Assembly (NCBI RefSeq): GCF_001423965.1
Contig: NZ_LMPV01000007.1
Span: 62,001-126,000 of the forward strand
Source of the DNA: Exiguobacterium sp. Leaf196
GTDB lineage: Bacteria > Bacillota > Bacilli > Exiguobacteriales > Exiguobacteriaceae
Reading direction: 5' to 3'
DNA: 64,000 bases
In this document: in pieces, positions 1-8,183 of the stretch
Numbering within the stretch: the first letter of the stretch is position 1
Layout: each line of letters opens with the position of its first letter
Program-made: the position numbers and the translations under genes
Notes under the pieces: generated by a model
What the model saw: the letters and a program-made list of their open reading frames with translations, nothing else
Told to the model about the DNA's origin: nothing
Database searches by the model: none

Positions 1-180
1 ATCCACAACGAAGATGTCCGAGTTCGCAGCCTGACCAAACTTCTCGATGAACGCCTCCGCCTGTTCCGTTGAAAGGACACGTTCCTCTGGCTCATACAAC
101 ATATATTTCGTTTCCCGATCAATTCGTCGCATTAAGTCCGATAAAGCTTTCCCGTCCATCAAAGTGGCTCGTCGTATCAT
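1..180 (-). CDS. GNAT family N-acetyltransferase, N-terminal part only
   Basis: The first 60 codons of a minus-strand gene run off the left edge. The visible protein starts MIRRATLMDGKALSDLM and continues with a segment containing RIDRETKYMLYEPEER, which resembles the start of GNAT acetyltransferases (first beta strand and helix). An ATG at 178-180 is preceded by a GGAG about 10 bases upstream. The acetyl-CoA binding motif lies outside the window, so the substrate cannot be inferred. Its base composition is like the core genome, so it marks the right-hand return to normal sequence after the AT-rich island. Confidence 0.6.
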   Translation of the reverse strand, partial: MIRRATLMDGKALSDLMRRIDRETKYMLYEPEERVLSTEQAEAFIEKFGQAANSDIFVVD

Positions 181-259
181 AGGTGTCAACTCCGTTTTTG
201 AAAAAATTTATTTACCAGTTTAAATAATATACTAGACTACAAACGCTCTATTAAAGTAA

Positions 260-2278
260 TTATCTAGAAATTTGTAATTGACTTAAAATACCTGGATTAA
301 AGATAGTTCTATCCTTAGTAAAATAATGATAAATAGAATAATAATTATCTTTAACAAAATCCCACTCTATAAAATGCTTATCTTTATTTAGAATAAATTC
401 TAATATTAATTTTTGTGATAAATCTACAGATTTTAAGTTATCTCTACTTGCATTTTCTAAATTTTCAATATTTTTCTTAAGTTGTAACTTTATTTCTCGC
501 TTAACTATTTGATTAATTCCTGAATACGAATAAAAAATGAGAATAAACCATATTTTTTCATCTTGAAATAAGTCATTCCAGTTAGTTTTTGATAAATTAT
601 CTCGAATAATCTTATTTACTTTTGTATTTATTTTTCTAGTGTTTTTAATACTATTATAGTAAAGACATAAACCTGCAATTAAAATTGGATTTTCTTCTTG
701 TAATATTTCAAATGTTATCAAATCAATTCTTTTTACAGTAAATTGAATATTATAAATAGCACTAAATACTAATAAGTCTATCCAATCATTTTTATAATTA
801 CTAAAAATACTTGTATCAAATCTTTCGTAACATTTTTCTACACTTTCCTTAATATCTAAATTGAATTTATCTTTTAAAAGCGTTAATGTTCTGATTAACT
901 TTTGAGTTGAAGTATATGTAACGTCTTTTGAATAGACAAAGAATAACATTAAAACCAGTTCGTTGGTATTAATATTTAATTTGTTCTTTATATCATTCGA
1001 TCTTTCAATTATGTTTAATATTACGCTTAACACGTATGATGATGTTAAAGTAACTTCTTTTGTATTTTCAAGCAAAATTAAAAATCTATTCCTTAAATCG
1101 TTATACTTTACACGCTTATTTTCAATGAAAAAGTTAGCTTTTATCCATTGATTAATTTGCTTCGAATTCTCCTCAGTCAATCCTAGATCAGATATATCTT
1201 TATAAAGATTATCAAAACTAAAATCGTCGTCTTTTTTTTCTATAATTATTTTCTCAATCAATGGTGTAAAGTCTTGTGTTTCATAAATCCATTTGTTAAA
1301 GCTAAATGAATTATTATATTGCTTAAACTTTTTATCGTTTACTTTTAAATGAAATTGGTTAAGAATAGTAGAAATCTCATTTGAAATAATTTTTTCTACC
1401 TCGTTGTTATCCGTAAATATAAAATAATCGTCTACAAATCGAAAAATTTTGTAATCTACCTCATTTATGATGTTTTTCGAAAAAAGTCTTTCTATTATTC
1501 TTTCGTCTATATGTACTAATAAAAATTCTGCGAGTAGTCTCATCATCTCTGGACCAACTAATATGCCGTTAGTTTTTGAACCATTCAAGTTCTGTAAAAA
1601 AGAGTCTATTCCTTTATATACAGAATACGTCTTCCCTAATTTTTTTGAATCATAAGTTTTTTTACTTATCAACCATTTGAACGAATGTGTATAAATACTT
1701 GGAAAACAATCCTGAATATCAATAGATAAAAGCTTACTAAATTTATCCTGATAAAAAGAGAATATATTACTATTATAAAAATCAGTTATTTTTTTAAAGG
1801 GTTTATGATTAAAATATGAACCGCTAGATTCTAAACTAAGAAGTAATTGTTTTTTTTCAAGATCGTTAGTATAAAATACTTTTTGATTCTTAACCTTTTT
1901 ATAAAATAAACTGTTTACTTTTTGTGGTTTGCGAACAGAAAAAGATTTTTTATTATGTATAATATTTAATATATCTTTTTCAAAACACTCCATAAAAATT
2001 AAAGACTCTAGAGAACCTAGTGGGTTCATTATTGAGATTTCTCTAAACAAGTTATTTTTCTTTTTAACTTTAAATTTTAACGGGGCTGAATGCCATTTAG
2101 AATCAAATATCTCTTTATCTGCTTTTATACTTTTTACTATCTTATTTACTATTTTTCTATTTTCTAATACATACTCATAAAAATACTTGTTCGTAAAAAA
2201 ATTTCCTTTTTCAAAAGGAAGTAAATCTGAAATTAGATAATCTTCTTTTTGTCTGTTAAATGTATTTTTTCTAGACAT
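260..2278 (-). CDS. drt3b: Drt3b-like antiviral reverse transcriptase (second RT of a DRT3-type system)
   Basis: A 672-residue protein with an intact RT core in the first half. Motif A is SIDIQDCF (about residues 185-192, Asp187). Motif B is TNGILVGPEMMRLLAEF (236-252). Motif C is FRFVDDYFIF (279-288), with the catalytic Asp pair at 283-284. The SIYTHS segment after motif A and the NGILVGPE form of motif B are typical of defence-associated (Abi/UNKNOWN-group) RTs rather than of group II introns or retrons. The remaining roughly 380 residues are Lys/Asn/Ile-rich, look helical, and match no domain I recognise. Start ATG at 2276-2278 has AAGGGG 10 bases upstream. It lies 172 bases downstream of another RT on the same strand; the long and short RT pair matches Drt3b with Drt3a (UG8 + UG3). 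Composition is far more AT-rich than the core genome, implying transfer. AbiA or AbiK relatives are alternatives, but those act as single RTs. Confidence 0.78.
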   Translation of the reverse strand: MSRKNTFNRQKEDYLISDLLPFEKGNFFTNKYFYEYVLENRKIVNKIVKSIKADKEIFDSKWHSAPLKFKVKKKNNLFREISIMNPLGSLESLIFMECFEKDILNIIHNKKSFSVRKPQKVNSLFYKKVKNQKVFYTNDLEKKQLLLSLESSGSYFNHKPFKKITDFYNSNIFSFYQDKFSKLLSIDIQDCFPSIYTHSFKWLISKKTYDSKKLGKTYSVYKGIDSFLQNLNGSKTNGILVGPEMMRLLAEFLLVHIDERIIERLFSKNIINEVDYKIFRFVDDYFIFTDNNEVEKIISNEISTILNQFHLKVNDKKFKQYNNSFSFNKWIYETQDFTPLIEKIIIEKKDDDFSFDNLYKDISDLGLTEENSKQINQWIKANFFIENKRVKYNDLRNRFLILLENTKEVTLTSSYVLSVILNIIERSNDIKNKLNINTNELVLMLFFVYSKDVTYTSTQKLIRTLTLLKDKFNLDIKESVEKCYERFDTSIFSNYKNDWIDLLVFSAIYNIQFTVKRIDLITFEILQEENPILIAGLCLYYNSIKNTRKINTKVNKIIRDNLSKTNWNDLFQDEKIWFILIFYSYSGINQIVKREIKLQLKKNIENLENASRDNLKSVDLSQKLILEFILNKDKHFIEWDFVKDNYYSIYHYFTKDRTIFNPGILSQLQISR

Positions 2279-2290
2279 GGTTTATTGACC

Positions 2291-2441
2291 CCTTAATAAG
2301 AAAATGATATCTTGTTTTTACACAATATCAAACTGGTTTCTAAGGCTTAGAGTTTTATTAGCTCTTTACTTTTGGGCTGGTTTAAAAATGATTCGGTAGG
2401 TCAATATACTACACGCTTAACACAAGTTTGTAGTTTGACCT
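2291..2441 (-). ncRNA. Candidate DRT3-associated structured RNA between the two RT genes
   Basis: The 172-base gap between the RT genes is much longer than operon spacing requires and contains two strong inverted repeats on the transcribed strand. The first (2398-2441) has 7 bp AGGTCAA/TTGACCT, then a 3-base bulge, then 6 bp ACTACA/TGTAGT. Its 15-base loop contains UUGUGUUAAGCG. The second (2291-2345) has an outer CCTTA/TAAGG stem enclosing a 6-bp TGATAT/ATATCA hairpin. Published DRT3 loci include a ncRNA, which is why this is called. No expression evidence is visible, and the ends are only the limits of the inverted repeats. Confidence 0.5.
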
Positions 2442-2450
2442 GCTGATGAT

Positions 2451-3713
2451 TTACTTATACTGAATTAAAAATTCTTTTGCTAATGTTTCATATGATTTAT
2501 TTATTGTGTTTACTTTATAAATTTCCTCCATACATTTTTGAAGTTTTTCATACTTCCATCCTAAATTAGGATGCATAAGGATAGTTCTGTTTTTGTAGAA
2601 ATTTGCTAAATATCTTTTATTTTTTAATTTATTTCTTATACATAGTGGAACCACAATTCTATTTCTCCCAAACGATACTCCTACATATCTTTCAAAGAAA
2701 GTAAAAGTATTTTTTGTGATTATTTCACTGTCTGAATTTCCATCCATAAATCTTTTCAACTCTTTATAACTATCACTTATCCCTCTAACTTGCCATCTAG
2801 AAACAGTGCTATTTTTTGAGGATCCATAGTAGACGACTCTTTTAAATAAAGCATCAATTTTAAAATCTAAAATTTTCACTGCTTCTGCATCTTGAACTCC
2901 AGAAATATAATCTTCGATATACTCATCAATTTTTAGTTGATATTTTCGGATCTTAGAATTAGCAATTCCAAATTTAAATTTTTTTCCTTGCTCTCTTAAA
3001 AAATGATATCCTAAATATTCAAAATCAATTTTTCCATTAAAACTTTTTTTATAGGATTTTGTTTTATGTTGACTTAACTTCACATTTTCCCCAAAGATAT
3101 CCTTAAGTATTTTTGATACTTCATTTTTTATTTTAAGTTCATCAATTTCCTCATCAAAAATTATTATTCCATCGTCTACGTACCTTGCATAATAAATACA
3201 GTGTTTTTCAAATTTCTCTTTAATTTTCATATCAAAATAATGTCCTAATACTTCCATCATTGAGTTATGAAGTCCTATTCCTGGAATCATTTCTTTTTGA
3301 TTTTTAATATAAACTTCAAAAAAATTTTTTTCATGAGAATGTAAGTTTATAAAATCACATACATATTTAAGTACTTTTTTTAAGTCAATATTATAGAAAA
3401 ATTTTTCTATATCAAATTTAAAAATAGTGTAGGTATGGTACACATGAAGATTTGGCATAATGTTCATTAATTCACTCATAATAGAAGATCTATTAGGGAA
3501 TTTTAGTTTGGCATATCTGTTTAAATATTCTTTGTAGTAATCTAATACGATCCTTAAATTTTTTTCTACTTCATTGTTATTAATTACATCTCTACCTTTA
3601 ACATTTTTAATTTCATACTCTATATTTTGATTAAAATTGGATATTATTTTTTCTACTTCCTCCATTTCAACACTGTGTAATTCAGTTAAATTTTGATAAA
3701 TTCTGCTCCGCAT
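2451..3713 (-). CDS. drt3a: Drt3a-like antiviral reverse transcriptase (first RT of a DRT3-type system)
   Basis: A 420-residue RT. The start was placed at the ATG at 3711-3713, because CTGGAGG sits 8 bases upstream of it; the 20-codon extension to 3773 runs into a terminator stem and lacks a ribosome site. Motif A is KFDIEKFFYNID (about residues 99-110, Asp101). Motif B is PGIGLHNSMMEVLGHYF (144-160). Motif C is YARYVDDGIIIF (175-186). A motif D/E region contains FEYLGYHF near residue 250. The C-terminal 150 residues would be the thumb. No maturase, endonuclease or protease domain is visible. In studied DRT3 systems, as I recall, Drt3a uses a ncRNA template to make repeat DNA and Drt3b makes the opposite strand; here that role is inferred from pairing and motifs. 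AT-rich, unlike the flanking genes. Confidence 0.78.
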   Translation of the reverse strand: MRSRIYQNLTELHSVEMEEVEKIISNFNQNIEYEIKNVKGRDVINNNEVEKNLRIVLDYYKEYLNRYAKLKFPNRSSIMSELMNIMPNLHVYHTYTIFKFDIEKFFYNIDLKKVLKYVCDFINLHSHEKNFFEVYIKNQKEMIPGIGLHNSMMEVLGHYFDMKIKEKFEKHCIYYARYVDDGIIIFDEEIDELKIKNEVSKILKDIFGENVKLSQHKTKSYKKSFNGKIDFEYLGYHFLREQGKKFKFGIANSKIRKYQLKIDEYIEDYISGVQDAEAVKILDFKIDALFKRVVYYGSSKNSTVSRWQVRGISDSYKELKRFMDGNSDSEIITKNTFTFFERYVGVSFGRNRIVVPLCIRNKLKNKRYLANFYKNRTILMHPNLGWKYEKLQKCMEEIYKVNTINKSYETLAKEFLIQYK

Positions 3714-3743
3714 AGATTTAACCTCCAGGAAACTATTGATAAT

Positions 3744-3773
3744 TTTATAGTAACAAAAAACACCATTATCCAA
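3744..3773 (-). promoter_or_regulatory. Possible promoter of the two-RT operon
   Basis: On the minus strand TTGGAT (3768-3773), an 18-base spacer and TATAAA (3744-3749) precede drt3a by 31 bases. The -35 overlaps the loop and stem of the ssrA-side terminator. The -35 is a weak match, so the call is tentative. Confidence 0.35.
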
Positions 3774-3793
3774 AATGGATAATGGTGTTTTTT
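3755..3793 (-). terminator. Terminator downstream of ssrA
   Basis: A perfect 17-bp inverted repeat (3755-3771 with 3777-3793) with a 5-base loop, flanked by six A on one side and six T on the other, so it can act in both directions. It separates ssrA from the RT operon. Confidence 0.85.
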
Positions 3794-3815
3794 AAATTCT
3801 TGCAATTTCAGGGTA

Positions 3816-4171
3816 TGGAGACGGTGGGAGTCGAACCCACGTCCGAAGGCATCGTATACTTAAGCTTCTACGTGTGTAGTCAATTTATTGGGATCTCGTC
3901 GTCAGGCTGCCAATTGACAGGCGTCCGTCCGACCAGTCTGATTCCATCTCTTCTCTTTCCCTCCAGACGGAAGGGTCCAAGCGTAGCCTGTTTAAAGTGA
4001 GACCCTAGAAATCAGCCGACCAGGCGACAGCTGCTAGGATCCGCAGTTGCTATTACGCTGCTGCGAGTTGTGTGTTAGTTTTGCCAGTTATGGCTGGTGC
4101 GTTTTAACGAGGCCGACCCCTCGACACGCCACAGAAGACCGAACTACCCCCGTCGAATCCGTAACGTCCCC
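3816..4171 (-). ncRNA. ssrA: tmRNA (transfer-messenger RNA)
   Basis: A 356-base minus-strand RNA. The 5' end GGGGACG (4165-4171) pairs with CGTCTCC just before the 3' end (3817-3823). The T-arm GGTTCGACTCCCACC precedes it, and ATTCGACGGGGG follows the 5' acceptor strand. The tag reading frame lies at about 4037-4072 and encodes GKTNTQLAAA followed by TAA TAG; the codon just before the Gly is ACT. CCA is not encoded: the discriminator A is followed by TAC. tmRNA with SmpB rescues stalled ribosomes and marks the nascent peptide for proteolysis, for example by ClpP complexes. It lies directly downstream of smpB with its own promoter and ends in a strong terminator. Confidence 0.95.
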
Positions 4172-4204
4172 AAGATAATAAATTGGGGCTTTCCGAATAC
4201 TAAT

Positions 4205-4233
4205 ATTCTAGCAGAAAAGTGTTACGGGTTCAA
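4205..4233 (-). promoter_or_regulatory. Promoter of ssrA
   Basis: TTGAAC (4228-4233), 17-base spacer, TAGAAT (4205-4210) on the minus strand, ending 33 bases before the mature 5' end of tmRNA. The -35 overlaps the smpB stop codon. The short leader would be trimmed, as usual for tmRNA. Confidence 0.75.
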
Positions 4234-4700
4234 TACTTTTGCTTATCGCGTAGTGCCCGGTCGATATCACGCTTCGCATCTTTCTTCTTCAGGTCGTCAC
4301 GTTTATCGAATTTCTTCTTCCCGCGTCCAAGTCCAATCAAGCATTTTGCGTAGCCGTTCTTGATGTAGACCTTCAGCGGTACGATCGTATAACCGTCCCG
4401 TGAGACCGCACCGATCAAGTTCGCGATCTGTTTCTTGTGCAGCAACAGCTTCCGCGGACGGAGCTGCTCATGATTGTAACGGTTCCCCTGTTCGAAGTGG
4501 GCGATGTTCGAGTTCCAGAGAATCGCTTCTCCCCCGTCGAACCGGACGAACGCGTCCCCGATGCTGATTTTTCCTTTACGGACCGATTTGATTTCCGTTC
4601 CCGTCAAGACGAGACCGGCTTCAATCGTATCCTCGATCGCATAATCGAACGAGGCCCGTTTGTTGTTCGCTAAGACTTTCGAATCTGTTCCCTTTGGCAT
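4230..4700 (-). CDS. smpB: SsrA-binding protein SmpB
   Basis: A 156-residue OB-fold RNA-binding protein that delivers tmRNA to stalled ribosomes. The conserved N-terminal pattern is visible: [20 protein letters not shown] followed by a [11 protein letters not shown] segment. The C-terminal tail is Lys/Arg-rich ([20 protein letters not shown]), as needed to mimic mRNA in the decoding channel. Length is typical of the family. It lies 32 bases after rnr and directly before ssrA, the order found in Bacillus. Confidence 0.96.
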
Positions 4701-4732
4701 GTTCGTTCACCACATTTCCGATGCGGAAGCGC

Positions 4733-7093
4733 TTATTTGCGCTTCCGTTTCTTATTCGAGACCGCCTTATGGAACGGCGGTTTATCTTTTTTGTCTTTCA
4801 GTGCGAAGCCTTTGCCTTTCGACTGGTCCTTCGACTTGCCTGGACGTTTTGACTTGCCGCGACGGTCGTCTTTCTTCTTGTCATCACGTTTTTGTCCCGG
4901 ACGTCCACCGCTTGAGCGGATCGTCTTCGACTCAAATCGTTTCTTCGGTTGCCGTTCTGGCATCCCGACGACGCTGAAGTCGATCGTCCGTTCATCGATG
5001 TTGACGTTCGTGACCTTGATTTCGACGACATCCCCGATCCGGAACTGTTGCTTCGTCCGCTCACCGATTAGCTGATAGTTCGCTTCATCGTAGCGGTAGA
5101 AGTCATCCGTCATCGCTTGGATGTGAACGAGTCCTTCAATCGTGTTCGGCAATTCGACGAACATTCCAAAGTTCGTCACACCGCTGACGACACCTTCAAA
5201 CGTCTCACCGATGTGTTGCTCCATATACTCGGCTTTCTTCAACGCGTTCGTTTCCCTCTCCGCATCAACGGCGCGACGCTCGCGTTTTGACGAATGATCG
5301 GCGATTTCCGGTAAAATCTCCGAATAACGGTCTTGCGTCTTTTGTGATTTATCGTTGTAGATGACATATTCACGCAACAGACGGTGAACCATTAAGTCCG
5401 GATAACGACGAATCGGTGACGTGAAGTGCGTGTAGTAGTCCGTCGACAGACCGAAGTGACCAATCGGTTCGATGTCGTATTTCGCTTGTTGGAGCGAACG
5501 GAGCATAACCGTACTGACGACGGCTTCTTCCGGCTCGCCTTCAACAGCGTTGAGGATCGATTGCAATGTCTTCGGTGCGACTGACTCACCCTTGCGTTCG
5601 ACGTTGATCCCGAAGTTACCGATGAACTTGAAGAACGTATCGAGACGTTCAGCTTTTGGCTCATCGTGAATCCGGTACATGAACGGTAGTTTTTGACGCT
5701 GAATGTGCTCCGCGACCGTTTCGTTCGCTGCAAGCATGAACTCTTCAATCAGTTTCTCAGCGACCGACCGTTCCCGGAGAATGATCTCACTCGTCTTGCC
5801 TTCTTCGTTGACGAGAACCTTCGCTTCTGGGAAGTCAAAGTTGATCGCTCCACGACGCGAGCGGCGTTCACGGAGGATTGCTGCGAGTTCCGCCATCTTG
5901 TCAAAGTACTCGACGAGATCCTGGTACTTCGCGATCACTTCTTCGTCTTCGCGTTCGATGATTTTCCGAACGTCCGTGTACGTCATCCGTTCCGCCGTCT
6001 TGATGACACTCTGGAAGATTTCATGGTTGACGACAGCACCGTTCGCATCGATTTCCATGATACAGCTGAGCGTCAGGCGATCGACATGCGGGTTGAGCGA
6101 ACAGATCCCGTTCGATAGACGGTGCGGGATCATCGGAATGACACGGTCGACGAGATAAACACTCGTTCCGCGCTCACGCGCTTCTTCGTCGAGTGCAGAA
6201 TCTTCTTTGACGTAATGCGAGACGTCGGCGATGTGGACACCAAGCTCGAAGTTGCCGTTCGCTAACTTCTTGACGTGAACCGCATCATCAAGGTCTTTTG
6301 CATCCGCCCCGTCAATCGTCACCGTCAATTCGTTTCGTAGATCAACGCGTCCGACTAAATCCTTCTCATCGATCTGATCCGGAACGGCATTCGCCTCAGC
6401 GATCGCTTCCGGTGAGAAGTCGACGTTAATCCCGTGCTTATGGACGATCGACAAGATATCGACGCCTGGGTCATTTTTGTGACCGATGATTTTCAAGACT
6501 TTTGCCGTTCCGGCGTAGCGACCGTCGGGATACTTCGTGATCCGGGCGAGGACTTTATGGCCATCGACGGCACCGAGTGTATCGTCGTTCGCGACGACCG
6601 GTAAGAACGTCAGCTTCGTATCATCCGGTTCGATATAAGCGATCGATTCGATCCGTCCTTTTGGACTGACGAACGTGCCGACGAAATCAGCTGGTCCGCG
6701 TGAAAGAATCTTGAGCAGTTTCCCTTCACGACGGTCGCCGCCGTTTGACTCGGCAAACACTTTGACGAGGACACGGTCGCCGTTATAGACGTTCTTTAGT
6801 TCCGGTGCCGGTAAGAAGATGTCGCCTTCTGAGCCGTCTTCCGGTGAGACGAAGCCGAAACCGCGTTGGTGGACGGAAATCTTCCCTGCGACTTGACCGA
6901 TCTGCGCGAGCGTTCCGTACTTGTTCGAGCGTGTCCGGGCGATCAACGCTTCGTCTTCCATGGCGTTTAGCGTCCGGATCAATTCCTTGAATGCTTCCGT
7001 ATCCGCTAGTTCTAGTTTTTTCGTTAATTGATCAATCGACAACGGACGTTCTTCCGTCGTGATGACCGTTAGTATTCGTTCACGTAATTCCAA
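4733..7093 (-). CDS. rnr: Ribonuclease R
   Basis: A 786-residue 3'-to-5' exoribonuclease. Domains in order are an N-terminal winged-helix-like segment (1-65), two cold-shock domains (about 70-220), the RNB catalytic domain (about 245-575) with the metal-binding motif TIDGADAKDLDDAVH (259-273), an S1 domain (about 620-700, starting GETFEGVVSGVTNFGMFVEL) and a Lys/Arg-rich tail of about 75 residues. It degrades structured RNA and works with SmpB-tmRNA to remove the mRNA of stalled ribosomes, consistent with its position upstream of smpB-ssrA. It follows est with a 14-base gap. Confidence 0.96.
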   Translation of the reverse strand: MELRERILTVITTEERPLSIDQLTKKLELADTEAFKELIRTLNAMEDEALIARTRSNKYGTLAQIGQVAGKISVHQRGFGFVSPEDGSEGDIFLPAPELKNVYNGDRVLVKVFAESNGGDRREGKLLKILSRGPADFVGTFVSPKGRIESIAYIEPDDTKLTFLPVVANDDTLGAVDGHKVLARITKYPDGRYAGTAKVLKIIGHKNDPGVDILSIVHKHGINVDFSPEAIAEANAVPDQIDEKDLVGRVDLRNELTVTIDGADAKDLDDAVHVKKLANGNFELGVHIADVSHYVKEDSALDEEARERGTSVYLVDRVIPMIPHRLSNGICSLNPHVDRLTLSCIMEIDANGAVVNHEIFQSVIKTAERMTYTDVRKIIEREDEEVIAKYQDLVEYFDKMAELAAILRERRSRRGAINFDFPEAKVLVNEEGKTSEIILRERSVAEKLIEEFMLAANETVAEHIQRQKLPFMYRIHDEPKAERLDTFFKFIGNFGINVERKGESVAPKTLQSILNAVEGEPEEAVVSTVMLRSLQQAKYDIEPIGHFGLSTDYYTHFTSPIRRYPDLMVHRLLREYVIYNDKSQKTQDRYSEILPEIADHSSKRERRAVDAERETNALKKAEYMEQHIGETFEGVVSGVTNFGMFVELPNTIEGLVHIQAMTDDFYRYDEANYQLIGERTKQQFRIGDVVEIKVTNVNIDERTIDFSVVGMPERQPKKRFESKTIRSSGGRPGQKRDDKKKDDRRGKSKRPGKSKDQSKGKGFALKDKKDKPPFHKAVSNKKRKRK

Positions 7094-7107
7094 CGTGACA
7101 CCTCCAG

Positions 7108-7848
7108 TTACTTGCTCCAGTTCAATGACTCCAGGAAGTCCAAGATGTCAGAGTGGAGCTGGTCTTTTTCTTTGTCGAGCGTAATGACGTGACCTGAGTT
7201 CTCATACCAGATCAGCTCTTTTTGGAAGGCACTGACTCCATCATGAATGATGTTCGCAGAGTCGGTGTTGATCATGTGATCGTTGCGTGCTTGGACGACG
7301 AGCGTCGGTGCGTAGACGTCCTCAAGCGAATCGCGTGTCTCACGCAGCAGTTCCTGCAAGTCCTTCAAGGTCGGCATCGGTTCGAAGGACGCCATCTCGT
7401 GGTCGATCTCTTCTTGCGATTTGCCTTCTCGCTTCTTGAATTCTCGTGCGTACTCGGTGACTCCTGCATACATGACTTCTTCACTTTTGATGTAGGCGGG
7501 TGCACACATCGGGATGACCGCTTTGACCGGACGGTTCATCGATAACTTCAGCGACATGACACCACCGAGCGATAGTCCGCAAACGGCGATTTCGTCATAG
7601 CCTTTATCGACGAGTTCCTGATATCCGGCAAGGACATCCTGCCACCAGTCGGCTGGCCCGGTCTTCGTCAGCTCTTCGGGTGGGGCAGCGTGCCCTTTAT
7701 ATTGTGGTGCAAGGGACGTATAGCCCTGTTTTTGCAAGTAGCGACCGAGGATGCGGACATCCGCGCTCGATCCCGTGAATCCGTGTAATAGTAAAACGGC
7801 ACGTGGGCCGGCTTCGAAAAAGAATGGTTTTGGTAAAGTGATTTTCAT
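7108..7848 (-). CDS. est: Carboxylesterase (Est30/YvaK family)
   Basis: A 246-residue alpha/beta hydrolase. The oxyanion motif is HGFTGS (about 22-27), the nucleophile elbow GLSLGG (Ser near 95), the acid is probably Asp in ARNDHM, and the His lies in [10 protein letters not shown]. Size and motifs match the thermostable Est30 family, which hydrolyses short-chain esters. There is no signal peptide, so it is cytoplasmic. The secG-est-rnr-smpB-ssrA order is that of Bacillus. A strong terminator between secG and est suggests est-rnr also have a promoter of their own in 7849-7910; I see no convincing one. Confidence 0.9.
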
Positions 7849-7910
7849 AAAATGATTCCCCCTCTAACTCTATACCCCATATCCGGAAAAAATGAATATC
7901 GAGAAATACA

Positions 7911-7942
7911 AAAAACGACAGCGCGATCATACGGCTGTCGTT
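7911..7942 (-). terminator. Terminator after secG
   Basis: A 9-bp stem AACGACAGC/GCTGTCGTT with an 11-base loop followed by T6 on the minus strand, eight bases beyond the secG stop codon. Confidence 0.75.
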
Positions 7943-7949
7943 TCAATGC

Positions 7950-8183
7950 TCACTTATAAAAAGCGACGAGTAACGCCAAGATGAAGAGTAATGCTCCTAA
8001 GATAGACGCCACACGATTTAGGACCGCATCCAAGCCACGAGCTTTTTGGCGACCAAATAATTGTTCTGCTCCACCCGTCAATGCTCCGAGTCCGGTCGTA
8101 CGACCCGACATCAATAGAACGACGATGATGAGAAGAACGGAAACGACGATGAGGCCGACAAGAGCCACGTTATGAATGATCAT
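7950..8183 (-). CDS. secG: Preprotein translocase subunit SecG
   Basis: A 77-residue membrane protein with two hydrophobic segments (about 4-24 and 55-76) joined by a Gly-rich loop (SGRTTGLGALTGGAEQLFG) that is characteristic of SecG. The start at the ATG of MIIHN was chosen because AAGGAGG lies seven bases upstream. A 21-codon extension upstream lacks a ribosome site. SecG assists SecYE and SecA in protein export; secA itself is at 52654-55173. Confidence 0.93.
   Translation of the reverse strand: MIIHNVALVGLIVVSVLLIIVVLLMSGRTTGLGALTGGAEQLFGRQKARGLDAVLNRVASILGALLFILALLVAFYK

Follow-up and report, generated by a model that had tools for sequence, protein, structure and literature searches.

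A Gram-positive DRT3 locus of Exiguobacterium with a predicted antisense RNA in its intergenic gap and a Drt3b lacking the C-terminal tyrosine

The locus described here raises the question of where a DRT3 system of a Gram-positive bacterium would keep its template RNA, and on which residue its second enzyme would be primed. It lies in a stretch of 64,000 nucleotides (nt) of Exiguobacterium sp. Leaf196 (NZ_LMPV01000007.1, positions 62,001 to 126,000), here called the window, and consists of two adjacent reverse transcriptase (RT) genes, drt3b and drt3a. According to the main text of PMC13174585, Drt3a of the E. coli DRT3 system makes poly(dTdG) on an RNA, and Drt3b makes poly(dCdA) unaided by a template and primes on Y666. 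The non-coding RNA (ncRNA), which Drt3a needs, lies downstream of drt3b in that system and presents its template, ACACAC, in a loop; this downstream position has been described for E. coli and close relatives. A working DRT3 needs a template RNA. Both this RNA and the priming residue were sought, and both appear to depart from the E. coli system. On balance, the locus is probably a Gram-positive DRT3 with an antisense RNA in the gap between its genes and with non-tyrosine priming.

Family placement of the two genes

The original prediction was that two adjacent minus-strand RT genes with intact YVDD and FVDD motifs, encoding 420 and 672 amino acids (aa), form a Drt3a/Drt3b pair. Both open reading frames were confirmed as intact. 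The gene drt3b (260..2278, minus strand; UG8-type, class 1 RT) starts with ATG and encodes 672 aa with the motif FVDD, and drt3a (2451..3713, minus strand; UG3-type, class 2 RT) encodes 420 aa from its ATG, or 440 aa if counted from an upstream TTG, with the motif YVDD. The DRT3 identity was borne out by wide margins in PADLOC hidden Markov model (HMM) searches, in which the 260-2278 protein scored best as Drt3b (380.5 bits, E 4.4e-114; the runner-up RT type, Drt6, reached 106.1 bits) and the 2451-3713 protein as Drt3a (129.7 bits, E 4.7e-38; runner-up type 42.8 bits). The top NCBIfam models were likewise Drt3b and Drt3a. For both proteins the retron, group II intron and CRISPR-associated RT models scored below Drt3a and Drt3b, and at gathering scores Rfam returned only the transfer-messenger RNA (tmRNA) and one tRNA from the window, with no group II intron RNA. 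Neither protein fell into another RT clade by HMM.

Drt3b sequences were collected from genomes, plasmids, phages and viral contigs, ten of them Gram-positive-type, that of the window included, and further ones Gram-negative-type. The labels Gram-positive-type and Gram-negative-type rest on the tree in the case of viral contigs, and the loci L013, L024 and L055 were assigned in this way; among the Gram-positive-type loci, the host is named or its class given for the window, for L003, L004 and L005 (same class), for L012, for L014 and for L079 (class of Diplocloster). In a maximum-likelihood tree of 41 rows, the ten Gram-positive-type sequences formed one side of a branch (97/93), the 23 Gram-negative-type rows a second group (97/97), and eight other RTs, which had turned up in the same searches, a third (94/93), so that Drt3b stood on the Drt3b side and away from other RTs in the tree also. 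The window protein paired with that of L024 (100/99), and both clustered with those of L055, L013 and Erysipelothrix phage SE-1, which is L012 (100/100). With Drt3b placed by HMM and tree and Drt3a by HMM alone, the assignment of the locus to a Gram-positive sub-branch of DRT3 is supported at the level of sequence.

The residues expected of active enzymes were retained. The catalytic aspartates of Drt3b (D187, D283 and D284, the last two within FVDD at 1427..1432, minus strand) and of Drt3a (D101, D180 and D181, the last two within YVDD at 3171..3176, minus strand) were invariant columns in alignments of 14 and 15 rows, respectively. The main text of PMC13174585 describes E22 and R241 of E. 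coli DRT3b as selecting alternating dA and dC, with R71 stacking on adenine. By alignment, the window equivalents of E22, R71 and R241 are E23 (the dA gate; 2210..2212, minus strand), R79 and R247 (the dC switch; 1538..1540, minus strand). Over the 32 rows counted, from which L079 was left out, position 22 was E in 28 and D in four, R241 was kept in all and R71 in 31. Four distinct solved sequences matched the window Drt3b, the best being 26cz (E 1.1e-38, named only RNA-directed DNA polymerase), followed by 9z6y (9.6e-33, named Drt3b), 7r08 and 9wy8; no solved chain matched the window Drt3a at 1e-3.

The two genes could alternatively encode UG-type RTs that do not act as a DRT3 and make some other product. 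The NCBIfam scores stayed below the curated equivalog cut-offs (253.4 against 350 for Drt3b, 101.5 against 200 for Drt3a), which weighs against DRT3, and the window Drt3b is only 23% identical to the E. coli-type Drt3b of L026. Set against the PADLOC margins, the tree, the retained glutamate and arginine gates and the ACACA motif of the gap described below, this alternative is hardly credible.

The search for a template RNA

In the Gram-negative-type loci, an AC repeat of at least 6 nt was present on the sense strand within 330 nt past drt3b in 28/28 cases, and on the opposite strand in one of the 28; this count leaves out L036, L037 and L047, and the near-copies L034/L035 and L031/L048 within it are not independent. 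No such sense repeat was found within the same distance in any of the ten Gram-positive-type loci (L055 has a 5-mer), and in the window the 330 nt past drt3b held no AC repeat of at least 5 nt on either strand. The gap between the genes gave a different picture. In all nine Gram-positive-type loci counted, the gap carried ACACA on the strand antisense to drt3b, and in one of the nine on the sense strand. For the antisense count, 2000 dinucleotide shuffles gave a mean of 1.84, and none reached nine. For ACACAC the antisense count was five of nine (shuffle mean 0.32, none of 2000 reaching five). The motif was relaxed from ACACAC to ACACA after the loci had been inspected, and L079 was not among these nine. 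This tenth locus also has an antisense ACACA in its gap, enclosed in a structure whose closing helix measures about 14 bp (by eye and by fold).

The antisense orientation of the motif followed drt3b regardless of the direction of drt3a: the two genes lie on one strand in the clade of the window, L024, SE-1, L055 and L013, and are divergent in L003, L004, L005, L014 and L079. In the window the candidate template is the ACACA at 2320..2324 (plus strand), within the block TTACACAATATCAA that is common to L024. This block came out as the best stretch of the alignment between the window and L024 gaps, which begins TTGATATTGTGTAA when read on the other strand (score 32, against 26 for the best of 100 shuffles). 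A sense-strand RNA with a UGUGU template was considered and dropped, as its product would equal the strand made by Drt3b and not its complement.

The gap also carries strand-biased structure. With 100 shuffles each, the folding z of the window gap was -5.4 for the antisense and -2.0 for the sense strand, and over 2316-2452 the values were -6.25 and about -1.1 (-1.11). In eight of the ten loci it was the antisense strand whose folding fell further below that of its shuffles. A promoter-like site for the putative ncRNA (TTGACC, 17 nt, TATCTT, with TG before the -10; 9/12) is situated at 2285..2313 on the plus strand, and is faced by a promoter-like site for drt3b (TTGATA, 16 nt, TATCAT; 10/12) at 2304..2331 on the minus strand. 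An antisense promoter-like site scoring at least 9/12 within 20 nt of the drt3b start was present in nine of the ten Gram-positive-type loci, L004 being the sole one without, in 1/23 Gram-negative-type loci and in 10.4% of 1906 random windows. At 10/12 or more the figures were 7/10, 0/23 and 1.7%, and the site of SE-1 scored 12/12. In this comparison the Gram-negative-type loci are GC-richer and a weak control, and the starts of L028, L032 and L045 are approximate. The promoter argument rests on the position of the sites and not on their number.

In both the window and L024, the -10 is followed by six bases and then by ACACAATATC, and the usual start distance would put the transcript start at that A. 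The predicted template ncRNA would thus extend over 2320..2452 on the plus strand, antisense to both genes, with both ends predicted and its 3' end unsettled. In the window and L024 alike it would begin 5'-ACACAAUAUC. Folds beginning at this start, as we placed it, gave for both loci a ten-base unpaired leader, a hairpin from base 11 (hairpin 1; 2330..2383 in the window, plus strand) and a second hairpin (hairpin 2; 2386..2452, plus strand), the hairpins being unlike in sequence between the two. The motif lies 43 nt past the -10 in L055, 37 nt in L013 and 123 nt in SE-1, and because of this a template at the very 5' end would be particular to the branch of the window, if the start is placed correctly. 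A second ACACA of the window (2420..2424, plus strand), in the loop of hairpin 2, offers an alternative template; it is missing from the L024 gap.

Several observations weigh against an antisense gap RNA of this kind. The ncRNA promoter-like site of the window is weak: 10.7% of positions drawn at random from the locus are as good, and it overlaps an oppositely directed promoter-like site for drt3b that scores slightly higher. In all, the region held 4 promoter-like sites where shuffles gave a mean of 2.3, not a clear excess, and the corresponding values were 4 and 1.9 for L024, 3 and 1.2 for L055, 2 and 1.5 for L013, and 2 and 2.4 for L012. The block common to the window and L024 also carries the -35 of the drt3b promoter; because that overlapping promoter is the slightly better one and the site counts are not clearly above shuffles, the block might be conserved for drt3b instead. 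When the folded sequence was extended upstream of 2320, the ACACA came to lie in a hairpin loop, closed by TGATAT/ATATCA pairing, and no longer in a free leader. The window motif is ACACA, of 5 nt, and not ACACAC, 14% of shuffled versions of the window gap contain it, and the copy at 2420 is a competitor for the same role. In L004 and L079 it was the sense strand that had the stronger z. A terminator was sought on both strands of the window and none was found; elsewhere the terminator evidence was mixed, an antisense-only script giving L024, L012, L013 and L055 out of nine loci, and a terminator tool giving only L055 and L013 on the antisense strand and L024, L012 and L055 on the sense strand. 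The idea of a common hairpin immediately 5' of the template was dropped, since most of 35 sites were no better than shuffles and such a hairpin was unreliable in either group.

These points bear on a second explanation, in which the two genes are a DRT3 pair that has its RNA at another place or needs none, and any antisense RNA made from the gap would serve solely to regulate drt3b. Besides the overlapping drt3b promoter and the predicted nature of the gap RNA, it would fit the antisense AC repeats of 6-7 nt found within 330 nt downstream of drt3b in L024, L012 and L004 (3/10), which may reflect a second RNA or chance. It also draws on the observation that AC repeats longer than 5 nt within 1-4300 of the window occur only in the tmRNA gene. 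The antisense ACACA of all ten Gram-positive-type gaps, whatever the direction of drt3a, the antisense structure of the gap, the lack of an AC motif downstream of the window drt3b and the requirement of E. coli Drt3a for an ACACAC RNA (main text of PMC13174585) argue against it, and we regard it as unlikely. From the sequence evidence, the location of the RNA in the gap is likely.

The C-terminus of Drt3b and a proposed working

The second departure concerns the residue equivalent to Y666. The C-terminal tail of the window Drt3b, KDRTIFNPGILSQLQISR (263..316, minus strand), contains no tyrosine, and its counterpart in L024 is KDRTVFNPDIIDQISISR; tyrosine is absent from the last 20 residues of the former protein and the last 18 of the latter, and the tail common to both ends ...ISR. 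Among the tree rows, a tyrosine was present within the last 8 residues in 23/23 of Gram-negative-type and 6/10 of Gram-positive-type, the four lacking it being the window, L024, L004 and L013 (L013 has one 13 residues from the end). The Drt3b of SE-1 ends NSY. A frameshift or sequencing slip as the cause was ruled out, because L024, whose Drt3b is 50% identical, has an equivalent tail. As a separate observation, L004:1468-3471 encodes a third Drt3b without a C-terminal tyrosine (ending LDSRASG), in a separate lineage.

The missing tyrosine and the short AC repeat could also mark a decaying, non-functional DRT3, and the degraded Diplocloster locus L002 shows that such systems do decay. Both window genes are intact, with catalytic and gate residues kept, and a tyrosine-less tail shared with L024 at that level of identity is no recent accident, which makes decay very improbable. 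We keep to a functional DRT3 that would be primed otherwise. Priming on Y666 was demonstrated for one E. coli enzyme (main text of PMC13174585), and we take it to be a feature of that enzyme and not one that defines the family. In the part of PMC12632851 drawn on here, the C-terminal primer of DRT10 is Ser456 in Eco3DRT10 and likely Tyr444 in Eco1DRT10, which would be a precedent for a changed primer and for a serine as primer. The window and L024 proteins share a cluster of tyrosines (646, 647 and 650) and a penultimate serine (Ser671), and the latter is perhaps the substitute primer, speculative as this is.

In the proposed working, the template RNA would not be encoded downstream of drt3b; it would be transcribed in the gap, on the opposite strand (about 2320 to 2452, plus strand), by a promoter that points away from drt3b. 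Drt3a would reverse-transcribe its AC-containing template into poly(dTdG), and Drt3b, by its Glu23 and Arg247 gates and with no nucleic-acid template, would make poly(dCdA) without priming on the usual C-terminal tyrosine. The two products would anneal to a duplex kept low by a RecBCD-type nuclease of the host, probably AddAB; a phage that upsets this nuclease control would then cause growth arrest, a form of abortive infection. This follows the E. coli system, for which the main text of PMC13174585 describes a duplex held down by RecBCD, with phage inhibition of RecBCD raising the duplex and growth stopping. An AddA, the one subunit sought, was found in the host at 1111 bits, and by analogy the same guard logic could hold through AddA, part of the Gram-positive counterpart of RecBCD.

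A more specific version combines two steps: a template at the 5' end of the RNA (5'-ACACAA...), on which Drt3a would run off and realign without a boundary stem, and priming of Drt3b on Ser671 or on a tyrosine of 646-650. An upstream template-boundary stem has been proposed for E. coli DRT3a and for DRT10, and the combination is put forward tentatively, as a possibility that we would rather doubt. A natural RNA with its template at the 5' end would, if true, test how repeat boundaries are set, and together with another primer it would amount to a DRT3 with different repeat-length setting and priming. A branch with two gate residues but no priming tyrosine separates templating from priming. For the cloning of a Gram-positive DRT3, the RNA is to be sought in the gap, and keeping the native gap should matter.

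Chromosomal setting and comparison with known systems

The pair forms a solitary cassette of about 3.6 kb between the tmRNA gene (ssrA, 3813-4171) and a GNAT-type gene (GNAT by eye), the distance from drt3b to the next gene being about 70 nt. The GC content is 20-27% over 401-3600 and 49-53% over 4001-8000. The ssrA loci of the other 18 genomes in the genus were compared by blastn: on the GNAT side the alignment reached up to window 193-201 in seven loci, on the ssrA side it began at 3787-3815 in 18/18, and nothing aligned inside 202-3786. Following the tmRNA gene, at about 3745..3795, an inverted repeat resembling a terminator was read by eye; the cassette edge lies near 3787-3815. None of these 18 genomes had a Drt3b match at 1e-3.

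The ssrA flank looks like a cargo site or hot spot, because other AT-rich genes (24-33% GC) adjoin ssrA in the nine genomes of the genus that were inspected. A Pfam scan of eight of these neighbours (L082, L083, L086, L087, L091, L094, L096 and L098) gave a Mrr_cat nuclease, a SEC-C protein, an AIPR/AbiU-like protein, a phage integrase, an AAA protein, an M48 peptidase and 366-aa proteins with no Pfam match. Two genomes repeat the final 25 bases of the tmRNA gene at 96-100% identity (G017:C9:4216-4240 and G004:C3:690323-690347), at distances from ssrA of about 5.4 kb and 20 kb; such a repeat is a mark of elements integrated there. For the final 12 bases, neither the window nor L080 held another exact copy.

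Genome searches for close relatives gave one of 19 genomes of the genus and one of 38 of the order, the window's own in both; nine of 398 genomes of the class at E 1e-30, four of which (the window, L003, L004 and L005) match over most of the profile; one of 398 in a phylum sample at 1e-60 (the window's own); two of 391 in the class to which Diplocloster belongs (its own genome and that of L079); and one of 296 in another order (again that of L004). A scan of viral-contig proteins with the window Drt3b alone gave no match, and with the L024 protein only itself. Degraded copies were seen as well: in L002:4032-6279 (Diplocloster modestus) drt3a is cut at 330 aa and drt3b is interrupted, with the C-terminal remains TLFKKYKGSRYGLYASID, and the Drt3b genes of L015 (CP083496.1), L038 and L039, Gram-negative-type records, are in pieces.

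DRT3 and its Gram-positive carriers are already known in databases; the aspects that may be new are the relocated antisense RNA, as predicted here, and the tyrosine-less Drt3b. Neither was described in the literature searched, which included the main text of PMC13174585, where the terms Gram-positive, Firmicutes, Bacill and antisense are absent; the coverage was incomplete and is not proof of novelty.

The closest relative found is L024, a viral contig (IMGVR_UViG_2822325623_000001), with 50% identity in Drt3b and 45% in Drt3a. It shares with the window the tail without tyrosine, the ACACAATATC block, the distance from the -10 to ACACA and the two-hairpin fold. It differs in a gap of 106 nt with one ACACA, in hairpins of unlike sequence, in antisense AC motifs downstream of drt3b, and in its Drt3b (L024:3992-5995), where LVDD replaces YVDD/FVDD as the catalytic motif. 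SE-1 (KR816341.1), L055 and L013 have in common with the window the clade, the gene order, the antisense ACACA and the antisense promoter-like site near the drt3b start, but their motif does not follow the -10 immediately and they carry a tyrosine near the C-terminus. Two of these pairs are phage-borne, with drt3b followed by an integrase in SE-1 and the L055 pair placed between helicase and DNA polymerase genes.

With the E. coli DRT3, as presented in the main text of PMC13174585, the window locus shares the two RT families, the gene order, the catalytic aspartates, the E/R/R gates and an AC-type motif next to the genes. The E. coli system has abutting genes, a downstream sense RNA and Y666, whereas the window has a gap of 172 nt, an antisense RNA predicted within it and no priming tyrosine. 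In DRT10 (UG17), as far as the part of PMC12632851 drawn on here describes it, RNA-templated repeat synthesis is in view as it is for the window, with a tyrosine or a serine as C-terminal primer; that system, however, is a single class 2 RT with a SLATT protein, whereas the window encodes an RT pair with a class 1 partner.

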